Shown: positions 4,531 through 57,933 of the stretch, in pieces
Numbering within the stretch: the first letter of the stretch is position 1
How the letters are laid out: the number at the start of each line of letters is the position of its first letter
Translations under genes and position numbers: made by a program
Source of the DNA: Thermoplasmatales archaeon BRNA1
GTDB taxonomy: Archaea; Thermoplasmatota; Thermoplasmata; Methanomassiliicoccales; Methanomethylophilaceae
Direction: 5' to 3'
Assembly: GCA_000350305.1 (NCBI GenBank)
Contig: CP002916.1
Location: forward strand, 434,001-498,000
DNA: 64,000 bases
Notes under the pieces: generated by a model
The model's database searches: none
What the model was told of the DNA's origin: nothing
What the model saw: only the letters and a program-made list of their open reading frames with translations

Positions 4531-4687
4531 ACAAATATGATCGGATTGGGATAAGCTTCCCGAATCTGTTGTCATAACCGAAAGATGTTCCGATCTGACG
4601 ATGAATCCTGACGACTCCGAGTTCTGAATTACTATCTCGGGTTTCATGTTCAGCGGTTATTTATGGCAGCAGTTCCATGTGGCCGCG

Positions 4688-5110
4688 ATGGCAGTCGAAT
4701 ACCGCGGCACGGTTATCGGGGATTACCTCGAGATTCTGGAGCTGTGGTCCGCCGACCGCCCCGTCTCCAGGGAGGATTCCGAGGAGGGCATCTCGTCGTT
4801 CCTCAGTAGGAACGGAAAATACTGTTTTACTGCCGTGTCCGACGGAAAGGTCGTCGGAGCGGTCCTGTGCGGAAGTGACGGACGCAGCGCGAGGATATAC
4901 CATCTCGTCGTGGACCCAGACTTCCGCAGGCAGGGTATCGCACACACCCTCATCAAGCACTCATAGAACGTGCTGAGGGAGGAGGGCACCTGCGCCGTGG
5001 ACGCCGTAGTGTTCAGGGAGGACCCCACCAGGGAGTTCTGGGAGAGCGAGGGATTCCGCTACCGCAGGGATATCGCCCACAGGGACCTGCCCGACGACGA
5101 GTTCTTCTGA
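4688..5110 (+). CDS. GNAT family N-acetyltransferase with one in-frame TAG (probable pyrrolysine, residue 93)
   Basis: A GNAT-fold acetyltransferase of about 140 residues. The acetyl-CoA binding region reads YHLVVDPDFRRQGIAHTLIKHS, followed by a TAG codon at 4964-4966. The same frame then continues with NVLREEGTCAVDAVVFRED..FWESEGFRYRR, the normal GNAT beta5-alpha4 end, and stops at TGA. Reading through the TAG gives a protein of family length with no other defect. ATG 4688 is preferred to 4646, because a TATA element (GTTATTTATGG, about 4655-4665) lies 27 nt upstream of 4688. The acceptor substrate is unknown. Either TAG is read as pyrrolysine, as expected in a PylB-encoding archaeon, or this is a very recent nonsense pseudogene; two other genes in the window show the same pattern. 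Confidence 0.75.
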
Positions 5111-7887: not shown

Positions 7888-8199
7888 ATGATGCCCAGAA
7901 AGAAGCTGGAATACTACGGCGCCAAGTACGGAATCGAGAAGCCCACCGAGCTCAGGCTCACCCAGGAGGACTGCGTCCGCATCTGCGAGGCCGTACAGGT
8001 CAAACTGTACAACGCCAAGGACGTCGGGGGAAGCATCTCGACCCTCATCGACTGCGTCATGGACAACCCGGACTACGCGAAGAGGGTATCCGAGGAGATG
8101 AGGTCGGCACACCCCGACAAGGAGCTCCCGGAGGACTTCATCGCCATCCGCATCGCGGACCGTGCGGCGGAGGACGTCCTCAGAGCATACGCCAACTGA
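7888..8199 (+). CDS. Conserved small hypothetical protein (103 aa)
   Basis: I do not recognise this protein. It is 103 residues, soluble and mainly helical in character, with the stretches PTELRLTQEDCVRICEAVQ and a C-terminal IAIRIADRAAEDVLRAYAN. The real coding signals are a TATA element (TTTTATACC, about 7856-7864) 28 nt upstream of ATG 7888 and a strong terminator after the TGA. It is transcribed alone, upstream of pylB but separated from it by that terminator. Confidence 0.7.
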   Translation: MMPRKKLEYYGAKYGIEKPTELRLTQEDCVRICEAVQVKLYNAKDVGGSISTLIDCVMDNPDYAKRVSEEMRSAHPDKELPEDFIAIRIADRAAEDVLRAYAN

Positions 8200-8213
8200 G
8201 ACAAACACCATCT

Positions 8214-8238
8214 CGGGGACCCTCAGTCCCCGATTTTT
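8214..8238 (+). terminator. Hairpin terminator between the small protein gene and pylB
   Basis: CGGGGAC-CCTCA-GTCCCCG followed by ATTTTTAC. Confidence 0.75.
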
Positions 8239-8296
8239 ACACTTTTCCAATCCAATGGTTTATTTACGTTCTTAGGGATACGAATCCCGCACCGGA

Positions 8297-9373
8297 GTGA
8301 CAGCAGTGGACAGCGTGAGCGACATCCTCGGATTCATCCGCGCCGGAGGAACGGCGGACAGGTCCCAGATAGAGACCCTTCTGAACGCCGAGGGGAAGGA
8401 CAAGGAGCTCCTCTACGAGAACGCCCGCGAGGTCAGGGACAGGCAGTTCGGGGACAGGGTCTTCGCATACGGCTTCGTCTACTTCTCCACCTACTGCCAC
8501 AACAACTGCACTTTCTGCTACTATCGCCGCACCAACCAGATCGACCGCTACAGGAAGACCCCCGACGAGATCGTGGACCTGGCGATGGACCTGAAGGAGG
8601 AGGGCATCGACCTCGTCGACCTCACCATGGGCGAGGACGACCACATGTACGCCGACAACTACAGCGAGCTCATCGACATCGTGTCGAGGGTGAGCAGTCT
8701 CGGCATCAACGTCATGGTGTCCCCCGGAGCCGTGAAACAGGAGGCTTTCCCCAAGCTGAAGGAGGCCGGGGCGGACTTCTTCGCGGTCTACCAGGAGACG
8801 CACAACCGCGAGCTCTACGACAGGCTGAGGCTGCAGCAGGACTTCGACTTCAGGTACAACCAGAGAGAGTGGGCCCACGATGCGGGGATGCTCGCCGAGG
8901 ACGGTCTGCTCGTGGGTGTGGGGGAGACCATCTCAGACATTGCCGACTCCATCATCAAGATGGGGAAGCAGGGATGCGAGCAGGTCCGCGCCATGACCTT
9001 CGTGCCCCAGGCGGGAACCCCGCTGCAGGACCTGACCCCGGTCGGCTCCGACAGGGAGCTCAAGGCCATCGCCGTCATGAGGATGCTGTACCCCGAGAGG
9101 TTCATCCCCGCCACCCTCGACGTGGAGGGAATCAGCGGGATGAAGGACCGCCTCGATGCAGGTGCCAGCACCATCACCTCCATCGTCGTGCCCCGCAGGC
9201 ACCTCGCGGGAGTGGCCCAGCCCGAGAAGGACATCGAGTCCGGAGGACGCTCGGTGCAGCACGTCTTCGACCTCATCGACCAGATGGGAAAGAAGATCGC
9301 CACCCAGAACGAGTTCTCCCATATCATCGCCGATCTCGAGGCAAAGCTCGCCAGGAGCAGGCATCTCACCTGA
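8297..9373 (+). CDS. pylB: Methylornithine synthase PylB (radical SAM)
   Basis: PylB converts L-lysine to (3R)-3-methyl-D-ornithine, the first step of pyrrolysine synthesis, by a radical SAM lysine mutase reaction. The protein is 358 residues, the family length. The [4Fe-4S] motif C-x3-C-x2-C is at Cys67, Cys71 and Cys74, within FSTYCHNNCTFCYYRR. Other PylB stretches are VDLTMGEDD, FFAVYQETHNRELYDRLR, a segment with MTFVPQAGTPL, and a C-terminal part with IPATLDVEGISGM and a barrel-closing ITSIVVP. GTG 8297 is the only reasonable start; a box-A TTTATTTA lies about 35 nt upstream. pylC, pylD, pylS and tRNA-Pyl are not adjacent or elsewhere in the window, which is unusual. A divergent paralogue with another substrate cannot be excluded, but the in-frame TAG codons nearby support a working pathway. 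Confidence 0.88.
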   Translation: MTAVDSVSDILGFIRAGGTADRSQIETLLNAEGKDKELLYENAREVRDRQFGDRVFAYGFVYFSTYCHNNCTFCYYRRTNQIDRYRKTPDEIVDLAMDLKEEGIDLVDLTMGEDDHMYADNYSELIDIVSRVSSLGINVMVSPGAVKQEAFPKLKEAGADFFAVYQETHNRELYDRLRLQQDFDFRYNQREWAHDAGMLAEDGLLVGVGETISDIADSIIKMGKQGCEQVRAMTFVPQAGTPLQDLTPVGSDRELKAIAVMRMLYPERFIPATLDVEGISGMKDRLDAGASTITSIVVPRRHLAGVAQPEKDIESGGRSVQHVFDLIDQMGKKIATQNEFSHIIADLEAKLARSRHLT

Positions 9374-9422: not shown

Positions 9423-9761
9423 ATGGACATGGGAATGGTTTGGATATTCATCGGGGGCATATTCGAGACCCTTTGGGTGACATGTCTCACCAAGTCCTCC
9501 ATGACCACGGGCTGGACGCGCAGGATATGGTTCGTCCTGTTCTTCATCTGCAGCGTCGGCAGCATCTTCTTCCTCGGACTGGGGATGGACGGCATGAACA
9601 TCGGCGTCGCGTACGCCATCTGGACCGCCGTAGGGGCCACGATAACACTAGTCGTGAGCAGGGTGCTGTTCAAGGAGCAGCTCAACAAGGGCAAGATCCT
9701 CGCGGTCTTCCTGATCCTGACGGGCATAATCGGTCTGGAACTGGCAGGAGGTCTCGCATGA
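9423..9761 (+). CDS. Small multidrug resistance (SMR) family transporter, subunit A
   Basis: A 112-residue membrane protein with four predicted helices. The conserved membrane Glu is in GGIFETLWV at the start of helix 1, and the helix 3 signature is GVAYAIWTAVGA. SMR proteins export cationic compounds or guanidinium in exchange for protons. ATG 9423 begins at the expected distance before helix 1; a longer open frame upstream is the shadow of pylB. It overlaps the following SMR gene by 4 nt (ATGA), so the two probably form a heterodimer. Confidence 0.85.
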   Translation: MDMGMVWIFIGGIFETLWVTCLTKSSMTTGWTRRIWFVLFFICSVGSIFFLGLGMDGMNIGVAYAIWTAVGATITLVVSRVLFKEQLNKGKILAVFLILTGIIGLELAGGLA

Positions 9762-10102
9762 GCCCTTGGATCTGGATCGCCCTCGGGGGAATATTCGAGG
9801 CCACCTGGGCGGTCACCCTCAGCATGTCGGGGCACTTCACCGTCCCGCTCTGGACCGCCACCACCATCACGGTCAACTTCGTCAGCATCTGGTTCCTGAA
9901 CAAGGGGCTGAAGCAGGGCACCAAGCCCGGCAGCAGTTATGCCGTGTGGACGGGGTGCGGAACGATATTCTCCACGATAGCGGGCATACTGATCTTCGAC
10001 GAGACCATGTCCCTCACGGAGGTCCTCTTCCTCGGGATCCTGCTCACGGGCGTCCTGATGATGCAGTTCGTGGACGACTCTTCCAAAAAGAGCCAGGAGT
10101 GA
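9758..10102 (+). CDS. SMR family transporter, subunit B
   Basis: A 114-residue SMR protein with four predicted helices. The essential Glu is in GGIFEATWAVTLS, and SSYAVWTGCG is the helix 3 motif. The EATWAVTL pattern is closer to the SugE/Gdx guanidinium exporters than to EmrE, but the substrate cannot be assigned. It overlaps the upstream SMR gene by ATGA. It ends in TGA five bases from the convergent methyltransferase gene. Confidence 0.85.
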   Translation: MSPWIWIALGGIFEATWAVTLSMSGHFTVPLWTATTITVNFVSIWFLNKGLKQGTKPGSSYAVWTGCGTIFSTIAGILIFDETMSLTEVLFLGILLTGVLMMQFVDDSSKKSQE

Positions 10103-10106
10103 GGAA

Positions 10107-11153
10107 TCAGTTCTTCTTCCAGAAGTTCCTTCCCGCATCTCCCATGGCGATGACGTTGGCATCGGGGGACGAGATCGGGGTCTCGCATCCGGGGGCGAGG
10201 ATGAGCCCGGAGTCCATTCCGCACTCGCGGATGACCCTGTACGACTGCTCGGTGACCTGCTCGGGGGTCCCCATCATGAGGTACTTCACGGGGTCGATGT
10301 TTCCCATGAGGGCGATCTTCCCGTCGGCCTGCGCCTTGGCGACCGCGGGATCCACCGCGTGGTCGAAGCTGAGGCAGTCCGCGCCGGTCTCGGCGACCAT
10401 GGGGATGACATCCTTGGTGTTTCCGCAGATGTGGAGGAACGCGGGGTTGGCGAACTCCTTCTTGTACATGGAGACGGCGGTCTTGACGCCGTCCGCGGCG
10501 AAGTGGAACATGTCGGGCGCTATGATGTCCTCGGAGGCGGTGGGGTCGGCCATCCACATGAGGGTCTGACCTGCCCTTCCCATGGCGACCTGCTGCTCCC
10601 CGACGAATCTGGCACTTTTATCGATGAGCTTGGGTGCGAGGTCTCCCTCCATCAGGAGGTCCATGATGAGGTTCTCCACCCCGAGGAGGTATCCCGCGGT
10701 GGTGATTGGTCCCCAGGCGAGTCCGCAGATGTGGAGGTCCTCGGGGATGATCCTGGCGGTCTCCCTCAGGGCCTGCATTATGCAGAGGTCGAAGTTGGGG
10801 CATTCCTTGGCGGCGTTGGGGTCGAAGAAGGCGAGGTCGTCGATCTCCTCGGCATCGTGCACGAGGACGGACCTGACCCTACCGTAGTCGTCGTCGGCGA
10901 AACTCACGTCCATGCCGAGGTCCGCGAACACCATCTGGGAGTCCAGGATGGGCTTCACGAAGTCGGACTTGGTCTTCATGGCATAGTCCACGGACACCCT
11001 GGCGGACATCTCCGGGTTGAAGCGGGTGTCCTTCACGAGGTACCCGGCGCTCCTGCTGGCGGTGACCAGGGCGAAGTTGTTGACCGGGGTCCTGTCCTGT
11101 TTCTCGAACTTAAGCGCTGCCTCTACTGCCGAGCGGTGTCCTGCGTCTTCCAT
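10107..11153 (-). CDS. MtbA/MtaA-like methylcobamide methyltransferase (uroporphyrinogen decarboxylase family)
   Basis: A 348-residue protein of the UroD/MtaA/CmuA family. Methanogen members such as MtaA and MtbA move methyl groups from corrinoid proteins to coenzyme M using a Zn-bound thiol. The zinc ligand pattern is visible: HIC in AFLHICGNTKDV and a Cys about 75 residues later in ILAPGCETPIS. Other family features are ALMGNIDPV and the N-terminal EAALKFEKQDRTPVNNF. No corrinoid protein or substrate methyltransferase gene is next to it. It lies 9 nt after an isocitrate-dehydrogenase-like gene on the same strand, so the pair is probably one operon, and its methyl donor is open. Confidence 0.78.
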   Translation of the reverse strand: MEDAGHRSAVEAALKFEKQDRTPVNNFALVTASRSAGYLVKDTRFNPEMSARVSVDYAMKTKSDFVKPILDSQMVFADLGMDVSFADDDYGRVRSVLVHDAEEIDDLAFFDPNAAKECPNFDLCIMQALRETARIIPEDLHICGLAWGPITTAGYLLGVENLIMDLLMEGDLAPKLIDKSARFVGEQQVAMGRAGQTLMWMADPTASEDIIAPDMFHFAADGVKTAVSMYKKEFANPAFLHICGNTKDVIPMVAETGADCLSFDHAVDPAVAKAQADGKIALMGNIDPVKYLMMGTPEQVTEQSYRVIRECGMDSGLILAPGCETPISSPDANVIAMGDAGRNFWKKN

Positions 11154-35667: not shown

Positions 35668-36783
35668 TCAGTCAACGTTGATGATGGCCTTGTAGATCGA
35701 GTGGACCTCGTCGAGGAGTGCCCCGCAGTCGATCTTCCCCGCGCTTGAGATGACCGCCGCCACCGCGGATGCGCCGCAGCCGACACCCTCCTTGATGTAA
35801 CCCCACTCATAGGCCTGCAGGCCCTCGTAGGGACTCTCGGAGTAATCCATGTTGATGTTGACGATGGGTATCTCCGGGGAGATGCTGCCGACGAGTTTCA
35901 CGAGGTCGGAGTTGGGGTCGGCGAGGAGCCACCTGGTGGTCCCCTCCATGAAGTTGCCGAGGATGGAGGGATCGAGCTTCACCGCAGCAGCCATGATGGG
36001 CGCCATCTGGGTGCCGCCCCCGAGGATGACCGGGACCTTCCTGGCGGCCCCTATGAGCATCCCTATGTTGACGGGCTGCATCGGGTCCCCGACGCACTAT
36101 ACGGCCCTGAGGGGGTCGTCCGCAAGGTCCCCGATCCCGATGCCTGCGGCATCGAGGGAGCTCATGACGGTGTCCCACTTGAATTGCTTGGGGTTCTTGG
36201 GGGAGCTCGAGCTGACGAGGTTCTCCCTGACCGTGCCCATGGCAAGGAGGACGGCGAGTGCGGTGGTGGTGCCTCCCGCACAGCTCTCGCTCAGGACCAC
36301 GAAGTCATAGGTGGAAGCTAGCTGCTCCCCGAGGATCTTCCCGTATTCGAAAGACTTCTTCACCTGCTCAGCGGACATGGCGTGTCCGGTGGTGATCTTC
36401 TCCCCCGCCTTCCCGCCGACTTCGATGCAGGGGATGTTGGGGATGACCTTGGAACCGCCGTTGATCATGAGGAACGGCATCCCTGAGAGGTTCAGGGCGG
36501 CCTTCGTCAGAGTAGCGGGGGTGGGGATGTTTCCGGGGTTGATCGGGATGCCCTTCATACAGGTGACCTTGCCCATGACGAGGAATTCCGCGTCGGCGGG
36601 CCCGGTGAAAAGCGTGAGTTCCGGGGTGTCTCCGGCCTCCGAGATCCCGGGGATGGTGGAGGTGAGCGTGTTGCCGATGGTGCATGTGAAAACCCCTCTC
36701 TTGCCCCAGATGCGGGTGAGGATGTCCTCGGCTCTCTTGGTGTCCCCGTTTACGCCCAGGGACGGCGGGATCTCGAAAGTCAT
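35668..36783 (-). CDS. cobT: CobT-type nicotinate-nucleotide phosphoribosyltransferase with one in-frame TAG (probable pyrrolysine, residue 229)
   Basis: The archaeal CobT family (formerly UPF0284) activates the lower base of cobamides by phosphoribosyl transfer from nicotinate mononucleotide. The frame starts MTFEIPPSLGV at 36783 and runs to LRAV, then a TAG codon at 36097-36099, then CVGDPMQPVNIGMLIGAA, the conserved VGDPMQP motif of the family. It ends in TGA at 35668. Motifs in the first part include IPGISEAGDTPELT, HAMSAEQVKKSFEYG and LSESCAGGTTTALA. Read through, the protein is 371 residues, a normal length, with nothing else missing. The TAG therefore is either a pyrrolysine codon or a lone nonsense change. 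It overlaps the upstream ApgM-like gene by ATGA. Confidence 0.85.
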
Positions 36784-56600: not shown

Positions 56601-56851
56601 ACTCCGTCGACACCTTCTTTCTCGATGATCTTGGCGATGGACTCCGCGGTCATGGGCTCGATGTAGACCCTGTCCGCGGTGTCGGGGTCGGTCTGGATGG
56701 TGGCGGGGTTGGAGTTGACCAGGACGGTCTTGTATCCCTCCTCGCGCAGGGACCTGCAGGCCTGGGATCCGGAGAAGTCGAACTCCGCGGCCTGTCCGAT
56801 GACGATCGGTCCGGAACCGATGACCATGAGCTTCTTGTAATCCTTCCTCAC
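53636..56851 (-). CDS. carB: Carbamoyl-phosphate synthase large subunit
   Basis: Makes carbamoyl phosphate for arginine and pyrimidines. The 1071-residue protein has the two ATP-grasp halves (MVIGSGPIVIGQAAEFDFSG at the start, VIIGGGPIRIGQGIEFDYCC at about 560) and a C-terminal MGS-like domain. Signatures include RPAFTLGGTGGGI and RPSYVLGGRGMEI. GTG 56851 overlaps the carA stop (GTGA) and gives the family N-terminus, so the open frame upstream to 57109 is a shadow of carA. It ends in TGA. Confidence 0.96.
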   Translation of the reverse strand: MRKDYKKLMVIGSGPIVIGQAAEFDFSGSQACRSLREEGYKTVLVNSNPATIQTDPDTADRVYIEPMTAESIAKIIEKEGVDGVLSGMGGQTGLNISAELAEKGILDRYGAKLVGTQPDAIEKSEDRELFKETMETIGEPVPLSRPANSIEEALDAVNNVIGRYPVLIRPAFTLGGTGGGIAYNEEELRDICARGLAYSRIHQVLIEESVLGWKEIEYEVMRDANDNCVIICNMENLDAMGIHTGESIVCAPCLTLSDRDLQTFRTASIKIIHALQIEGGCNVQFAFDPVTHDYRVIEVNPRVSRSSALASKATGYPIARVATKIAVGYTLDEIPNHITGKTYAAFEPAIDYVVIKIPRWPFDKFRTVDRHLGTQMKSTGEVMSIGRTFEEALLKGLRSLEIGVKGLDPVDMTDDELHAEFKDATDRRIFAMGEALRRGWTVEQVAKECAWDIFFVQKLKNIVDMENRIKSEDLTDDLLKEAKYMGFSDETIATLLKGKTEWDVRAQREKLGVFPYYKMVDTCAAEFSAETPYFYSTYKGVSSEVKNDSKKKVVIIGGGPIRIGQGIEFDYCCVHGVMALQEEGIEAVMINNNPETVSTDYDISDRLYFEPLELEDVLNVIRAEDADGVICQYGGQTSVNLAIDVEKGLKGTKTKVLGTTPDQMDVAEDRKRFTDLMRKLNIKQPPSGTAYSFEEAVKIAEEIEYPVLVRPSYVLGGRGMEIVYSADELKTYMETAVKVSRNHPVLIDKYLTEAIEIDVDSVSDGEDVYVGGILEHVEYAGCHSGDATMVMPPYTLPKDIIDQIVEINRQVALNLKILGLMNLQLAYKDGEIWMIEANPRASRTVPFISKATGIPLAKIGVKVMLGKKLKDFGLSGYRAIDHYAVKASVFPFLKLPGVDSILTPEMKSTGEVMGIDPDLHTACLKALTAAGCVLPTEGGVYITVNDHDKPAATEVAKQLVQMGFKIYATKGTSTYLREHGVENTAVFKNSENMKPNAISLMRDGAINLIINTPSLHSGAVRDGHRMRRLAVELEIPFITTLNGAEISVGAIAVKKKGEIGVKSMQDYHGLV

Positions 56852-57933
56852 TGTTTCGCCTCCTTCACGATCTTGGCGAACCTTTCGAACAGGAACGATG
56901 TGTCCATGGGTCCGGGGTTGGCCTCGGGGTGGTACTGGGAAGTGAAGACCGGGAGGTCCTTGTACTTCATCCCCTCGACGGTCTTGTCGTTGATGTTGAA
57001 CTGGTCGGCGATGAGCCCGGTTCCCTTCAGGGAGTCCTCGTCCACGGAGAACCCGTGGTTCTGGGAGGTGATGTAGACCTTGCCGTTGTACATGACGGGC
57101 TGGTTGCATCCGCGGTGTCCGAACTTCATCTTGTAGGTCTTCCCGCCGAGTCCGATGGCGGTGACCTGGTTCCCGAAGCAGATTCCGAAGAGGGGCACCT
57201 GCTCGGCGAGTATCCCGACGGTCTTCGCGGGGCCTGCTACGATGGCCTTGTGCATGGGGTCGCCGGGTCCGTTGGACACCAGGATGCCGTCGATCCTGTC
57301 CTCGGTGATGACGTCGGCGGGGGTGTCGTAGGGGTACATGATGACATTGAAGTGCTGGGAGAGGTCGTGGAGGATGCGGAGCTTCTCTCCGCAGTCAAGG
57401 AGGCCCACGGTGTACTGCTTCCCGTTGTCGAACTTCTGGATCTTCTTGCAGGATACCTCGGCCACGAGGTTTGCCTCGGAGGGCGCGGGCATCTTCTTGA
57501 GCTTCTAGATGAGCTCGGGGATCCCGTCCTTGTCCTCGGTGACGGCTCCCTTGAGCGTTCCGTGCTCCCTGATCTTGATGACGAGGTCCCTGGTGTCGAT
57601 GCCTGCGATACCGGGGATCTTGTAGTCTTTGAGGAACTCGTCGATGGTCTTCCCGTGGTAGGAGTCCGTGGGGTTCTTGGTGTACTCGCGCACGACGACG
57701 GCGCGGCAGTGGATTCCCTCGGACTGGAAGAAATCGGCAGTGGTTCCGTAGTTCCCGATGAGCGGGAAGGTCATGACGATGATCTGACCTTTGTAGGAGG
57801 GGTCGGTGAAACTCTCCTGATATCCGCTCATTCCCGTAGCAAAAACGACCTCACCGGAGGCCTCGGCAGGGTAACCGAAGGATTCCCCTTCGTATACGGT
57901 GCCGTCCTCGAGGACAAGATAACTCCTTGACAT
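56848..57933 (-). CDS. carA: Carbamoyl-phosphate synthase small subunit with one in-frame TAG (probable pyrrolysine, residue 143)
   Basis: The glutaminase subunit of carbamoyl-phosphate synthase. The first part (SYLVLEDGTVYEGESFG, FATGMSGYQESFTDPSY, GIAGIDTRDLVIKIREHG) runs to DGIPELI, then TAG at 57505-57507. The same frame continues KLKKMPAPSEANLVAEVSC, normal for this region of CarA, then the GATase part with VSNGPGDP, LFGICFGNQ (nucleophile Cys) and SQYHPEANPGP (His, Glu), ending TGA. Read through, it is 361 residues, the family length. As carA is a core gene with no second copy seen here, TAG is very likely translated. A TATA element (GGTTAAATAGG) lies about 29 nt upstream of the start. 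Confidence 0.9.

Follow-up and report, generated by a model that had tools for sequence, protein, structure and literature searches.

The window, a stretch of 64,000 nucleotides, covers positions 434001-498000 of the single 1,461,105-bp contig of Thermoplasmatales archaeon BRNA1, a member of a gut-type methanogen family; the contig is 99.7% complete. The organism comes from the bovine rumen and has a complete genome of 1.46 Mb with 58% G+C (PMC5011839). An open reading frame of 358 amino acids in the window encodes a genuine PylB, the first enzyme in the synthesis of pyrrolysine, the 22nd amino acid. It is flanked by a small gene upstream and by two small multidrug resistance (SMR) genes downstream (Table 1). 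In the profile search it scores 426.9 bits with the PylB family TIGR03910, for which the curated cut-off is 348.2. The top match among solved structures is PylB 3T7V (E=1.9e-85, aligned over residues 19-344), and the radical SAM CxxxCxxC motif, here CHNNCTFC, is aligned with that of 3T7V. The translation possibly starts at the GTG at 8306, which is preceded by GGAG and matches the aligned starts of relatives.

The same frame is also matched by the HydE and BioB models, and it could in principle encode another radical SAM enzyme of the HydE/BioB type with no methylornithine synthase role. We consider this extremely improbable. The second-best family, HydE, reaches 110.7 bits and stays far below its own cut-off, as do the other families, while TIGR03910 is far exceeded. 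Furthermore, this copy is the sole pylB found in a genome that is otherwise complete for pylTSCD. A blastn search found no plasmid relative of the gene. Thus, the radical SAM motif and the family signatures, described as clear in the preliminary description of this DNA, are those of PylB, and the small hypothetical gene and the SMR pair named there as its neighbours are also in place.

The MtaA-like gene that follows the SMR pair is conserved in the relatives examined and belongs to a conserved block. Between the upstream gene and pylB there are a terminator-like hairpin with a T-run and a TATA-box-like element; therefore, we suggest that pylB probably starts its own transcript. The window holds no tRNA-Pyl: tRNA-Leu and tRNA-Arg are the sole tRNAs seen in it, and it has no CTCTAAAAC site. 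No match to pylS, pylC or pylD exceeds the cut-off in the window either, all such matches being located elsewhere in the genome. The absence of these genes from the window, part of the preliminary description, is thus confirmed.

Table 1. Features of the pylB locus, of the distant pyl cluster and of genes with in-frame TAG. Positions refer to the window, except for pylT, pylS, pylC and pylD (contig) and gatD (L026).
Feature	Position	Strand	Basis or remark
GNAT acetyltransferase, in-frame TAG codon 107	4646..5110	+	PF00583 match spans TAG
103-aa protein, function unknown; conserved left neighbour of pylB	7888..8199	+	no Pfam or NCBIfam match; kept also where pylB is absent
Terminator-like hairpin and T-run (TCGGGGAC..GTCCCCGATTTTT) 3' of upstream gene	8213..8238	+	read from sequence
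TATA-box-like TTTATTTA, ~27 bases 5' of the transcription start that is expected shortly before pylB	8259..8266	+	inferred from sequence
pylB, methylornithine synthase (radical SAM)	8297..9373	+	TIGR03910, 3T7V
SMR protein 1, right neighbour of pylB	9423..9761	+	PF00893, 55 bits
SMR protein 2	9758..10102	+	PF00893, 63.5 bits
MtaA/CmuA-type methylcobamide methyltransferase relative	10107..11153	-	TIGR01463, 147 bits, below cut-off 235
CobT-like phosphoribosyltransferase, in-frame TAG codon 229	35668..36783	-	PF02277 match spans TAG
carA, in-frame TAG codon 143, ends in TGA	56848..57933	-	TAG in studied genome only; relatives have A or E
gatD, in-frame TAG codon 329	L026:5762-7135	-	relatives without stop
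pylD	988657-989493	-	one match over cut-off
pylC	989494-990639	-	one match over cut-off
pylS	990726-991547	-	one match over cut-off
pylT (tRNA-Pyl, CUA anticodon)	991573-991643	-	71 nt, CTCTAAA anticodon loop

The search of the whole genome recovers the missing genes. The genes pylT, pylS, pylC and pylD are contiguous and form a single cluster at 988.7-991.6 kb of the same contig, with about 545 kb between pylB and pylD. The tRNA-Pyl is intact. It is missed by ARAGORN and was identified by direct reading of the sequence upstream of pylS, where it lies 25 bases from that gene; an identical or near-identical gene is found 5' of pylS in relatives. The minimum-free-energy fold of the tRNA-Pyl taken alone has a z of -0.47. 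At the place where pylB would lie in the canonical pylTSBCD order, pylS and pylC are separated by a gap of 86 bp. Methyltransferase genes with in-frame TAG are located upstream of the cluster, first two mtmB copies (codon 202), then mttB (codon 340) and mtbB (codon 357). In the mtmB copy closer to the cluster, a PYLIS_1 match begins at the in-frame TAG; it scores 35 bits and does not reach the gathering score of 70. The mtmB and mttB genes are separated by several short genes, including a gene model of 128 amino acids with TAG read through (L009:17792-18178, minus strand).

The use of TAG was followed with a codon-usage gene caller in 414 kb (the window and 18 further stretches), which is 28% of the genome. 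The 366 genes without internal TAG in this sample end in TGA (343), TAA (20) or TAG (3). Two of the three models ending in TAG were discarded, being antisense frames over ValRS-like and Cdc48-like AAA genes (both named from sequence reading). True TAG stops thus amount to one in 364 complete gene models (~0.3%). Within the window itself all 58 gene models end in TGA and none in TAG, in line with the earlier observation that complete genes here stop at TGA or TAA. TAG is thus almost unused as a terminator. The sole convincing case in the 414 kb, at L015:778-1617 (plus strand), encodes 279 amino acids and has no Pfam match. A few genes may still use TAG as their stop, or read-through may add 20 residues there.

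Apart from the four methyltransferase genes, an internal TAG flanked by coding signal is seen in six of the sampled genes: carA, the CobT-like gene, the GNAT gene, an ABC ATPase, a carbon-nitrogen hydrolase and gatD. The first three contain the three in-frame TAG codons that the preliminary description mentions. The ABC ATPase, with 39 codons after the TAG, is the weakest of the six. In-frame TAGs near the starts of open reading frames were excluded when the sequence before them did not look coding, the start being taken as misplaced. For carA and gatD none of the matched relatives of the same genus has an internal stop; the TAG column is variable in both (A/E in carA, mostly Q/T in gatD) and is followed by strongly conserved sequence. 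The GatD relatives are 76-82% identical, and 128 well-conserved residues follow the TAG. GatD is required for the synthesis of Gln-tRNA in archaea, and therefore reading through its TAG is the sensible conclusion. A subunit of a tRNA-charging pathway is in this way predicted to depend on TAG read-through itself. The six genes keep an intact coding sequence through the TAG, and we therefore suggest that this genome uses TAG as a sense codon, in effect for pyrrolysine, which is the residue predicted at each TAG.

Could the in-frame TAGs instead be sequencing errors or pseudogenes, and TAG merely an uncommon terminator, the genome being rich in GC? The single apparent TAG stop would agree with this, but several observations make it a very improbable account. 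Off-frame and in intergenic DNA, 19-20% of the stop triplets are TAG, and Methanomassiliicoccus luminyensis, which also has ~60% G+C (PMC5011839), ends 11.3% of its genes in TAG (PMC4153887). In carA and gatD the TAG has conserved sequence on both sides. Stop triplets with 40 coding-like codons on each side are TAG in eight cases, TAA in none and TGA, by far the commonest stop, in five. Recoding of TAG thus appears to reach housekeeping genes, gatD and carA among them, and the supply of pyrrolysine would matter beyond growth on methylamines.

Comparison within the family places the separation of pylB among its relatives. At the thresholds used, 74 of 102 family genomes have pylB and 75 have pylS. 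Counted from positions in the 72 genomes with both, the two genes are adjacent in 59, interrupted by contig ends in 4 and clearly apart in 9. The nine comprise five genomes of the studied genus, the studied one included (G000, G011, G012, G014, G020), and four of genus g9 (G051, G072, G073, G076). In G011, G012 and G020 the block is the same as here, that is, the small gene, pylB, the two SMR genes and the MtaA-like gene, followed by deoxyhypusine synthase-like and RNA polymerase subunit-like genes (both named from sequence reading). In G014 the SMR pair is absent beside the solitary pylB; in that genome an SMR pair lies ~4 kb from pylS (L074:10651-11288). In five more genomes of this genus (G013, G016, G021, G022, G023) the block is kept but pylB is not part of it, lying instead between pylS and pylC; these genomes present the empty site. 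The split genomes of the studied genus form one clade, with support of 100/99 in the PylB tree and 100/100 in the PylS+PylC tree. The simplest reading is a clean insertion of pylB that happened a single time, in the ancestor of these split genomes, and was kept in place since. The direction of the move was likely from operonic to split, because most of the family and the published outgroups (PMC3941956) have pylB in the operon.

The solitary pylB of genus g9 occupies a different neighbourhood from that of the studied genus. Four loci (L064, L065, L066, L067) hold a divergent clade of solitary PylB with a neighbourhood of its own, and three of them have a protein of 559-570 amino acids downstream. 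The solitary pylB of G051 (L063) branches within the operonic PylB clade of g9 and may have moved separately and more recently. One might ask whether the solitary pylB of the studied genus is a xenolog, inserted from another lineage with the same function, after which the operonic copy was lost. We regard this as rather unlikely for the studied genus, though it has some appeal: the PylB tree does not firmly join the split clade to its PylS/PylC relatives, the hosts of the divergent g9 type are interspersed with operonic ones in the PylS+PylC tree, and one g9 genome (G074) carries an operonic pylB together with a divergent solitary one. However, the draft of G074 is fragmented and shows 3% contamination, and the insertion sites differ between the two genera. 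The AU test rejects neither the grouping of the solitary PylB of both genera (p-AU 0.49) nor that of the split clade with PylB of its own and the sister genus (p-AU 0.35); the former result is compatible with the xenolog and the latter with relocation, and one origin of solitary pylB fits the tests as well as two. It is also conceivable, with the odds slightly against it, that pylB left the cluster more than once in the family, to unrelated sites, and that the divergent solitary type displaced the operonic gene in some lineages. The initial step in making pyrrolysine would then behave as an exchangeable module.

We favour, with high confidence, the relocation of a genuine pylB out of an ancestral pylTSBCD cluster, with pylTSCD left at a distance and TAG effectively a pyrrolysine codon. 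We suggest that pylB exited the cluster in the ancestor of a Methanomethylophilus-type clade, landed between the gene of the 103-aa protein and the SMR pair, and has remained there. The relocated PylB is predicted to make 3-methylornithine from lysine, its function and chemistry most likely unchanged. PylC and PylD, whose genes lie about 545 kb from pylB, would then complete pyrrolysine, and PylS would charge the tRNA-Pyl(CUA), which would read TAG. TAG is nearly gone as a terminator and occurs within the methylamine methyltransferases and some housekeeping genes, and a steady supply of pyrrolysine would suit a genome that uses TAG as a sense codon. We note that a split pyl locus in a low-TAG genome that uses pyrrolysine was proposed from the raw sequence: the lone pylB and the missing TAG stops correctly foretold the distant pylTSCD and the recoded genome. 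Of the two outcomes named there as refuting the proposal, a genome lacking pylS or tRNA-Pyl and frequent TAG stops, the first did not occur in the genome and the second did not occur in the 414 kb sampled.

A recent paper has reportedly described archaea in which every TAG codon is read as pyrrolysine. The canonical pylTSBCD order of Methanosarcina and Methanomassiliicoccus, seen also in G013 of the same genus, involves the same five genes close to mtmB, mtbB and mttB. However, it has pylB between pylS and pylC, unlike the studied genome with its 86-bp gap and pylB elsewhere. The closest parallel is Ca. Methanomethylophilus alvus Mx1201, in which pylTSCD lie together and pylB is alone ~0.7 Mb away (Borrel et al. 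2014, PMC3941956), compared with ~545 kb here. Both have single-copy pyl genes, a short PylS without the N-terminal domain, a distant solitary pylB and low use of TAG. TAG stops are 1.6% in M. alvus, with 16 extra candidate pyrrolysine proteins (PMC4153887), versus ~0.3% here in the sample, which covers 28% of the genome. Near-absence of TAG stops and in-frame TAG outside the methyltransferases are shared with low-TAG Methanomassiliicoccales such as M. alvus and ISO4-H5, the latter with 46 such genes (PMC5011839). The genes quoted from PMC4153887 and PMC5011839 do not include carA, gatD or the other recoded genes of the present sample. In PMC5011839 the organisation of the pyl operon is termed conserved across Methanomassiliicoccales, a statement that fits neither M. 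alvus nor the studied genome. The split pylB and low TAG use were already published for Ca. M. alvus in 2014 (PMC3941956, PMC4153887), and the studied genome is a further case. The empty site in relatives is a new, modest addition, from which it follows that pylB can exit the pyl cluster and persist at a new location.
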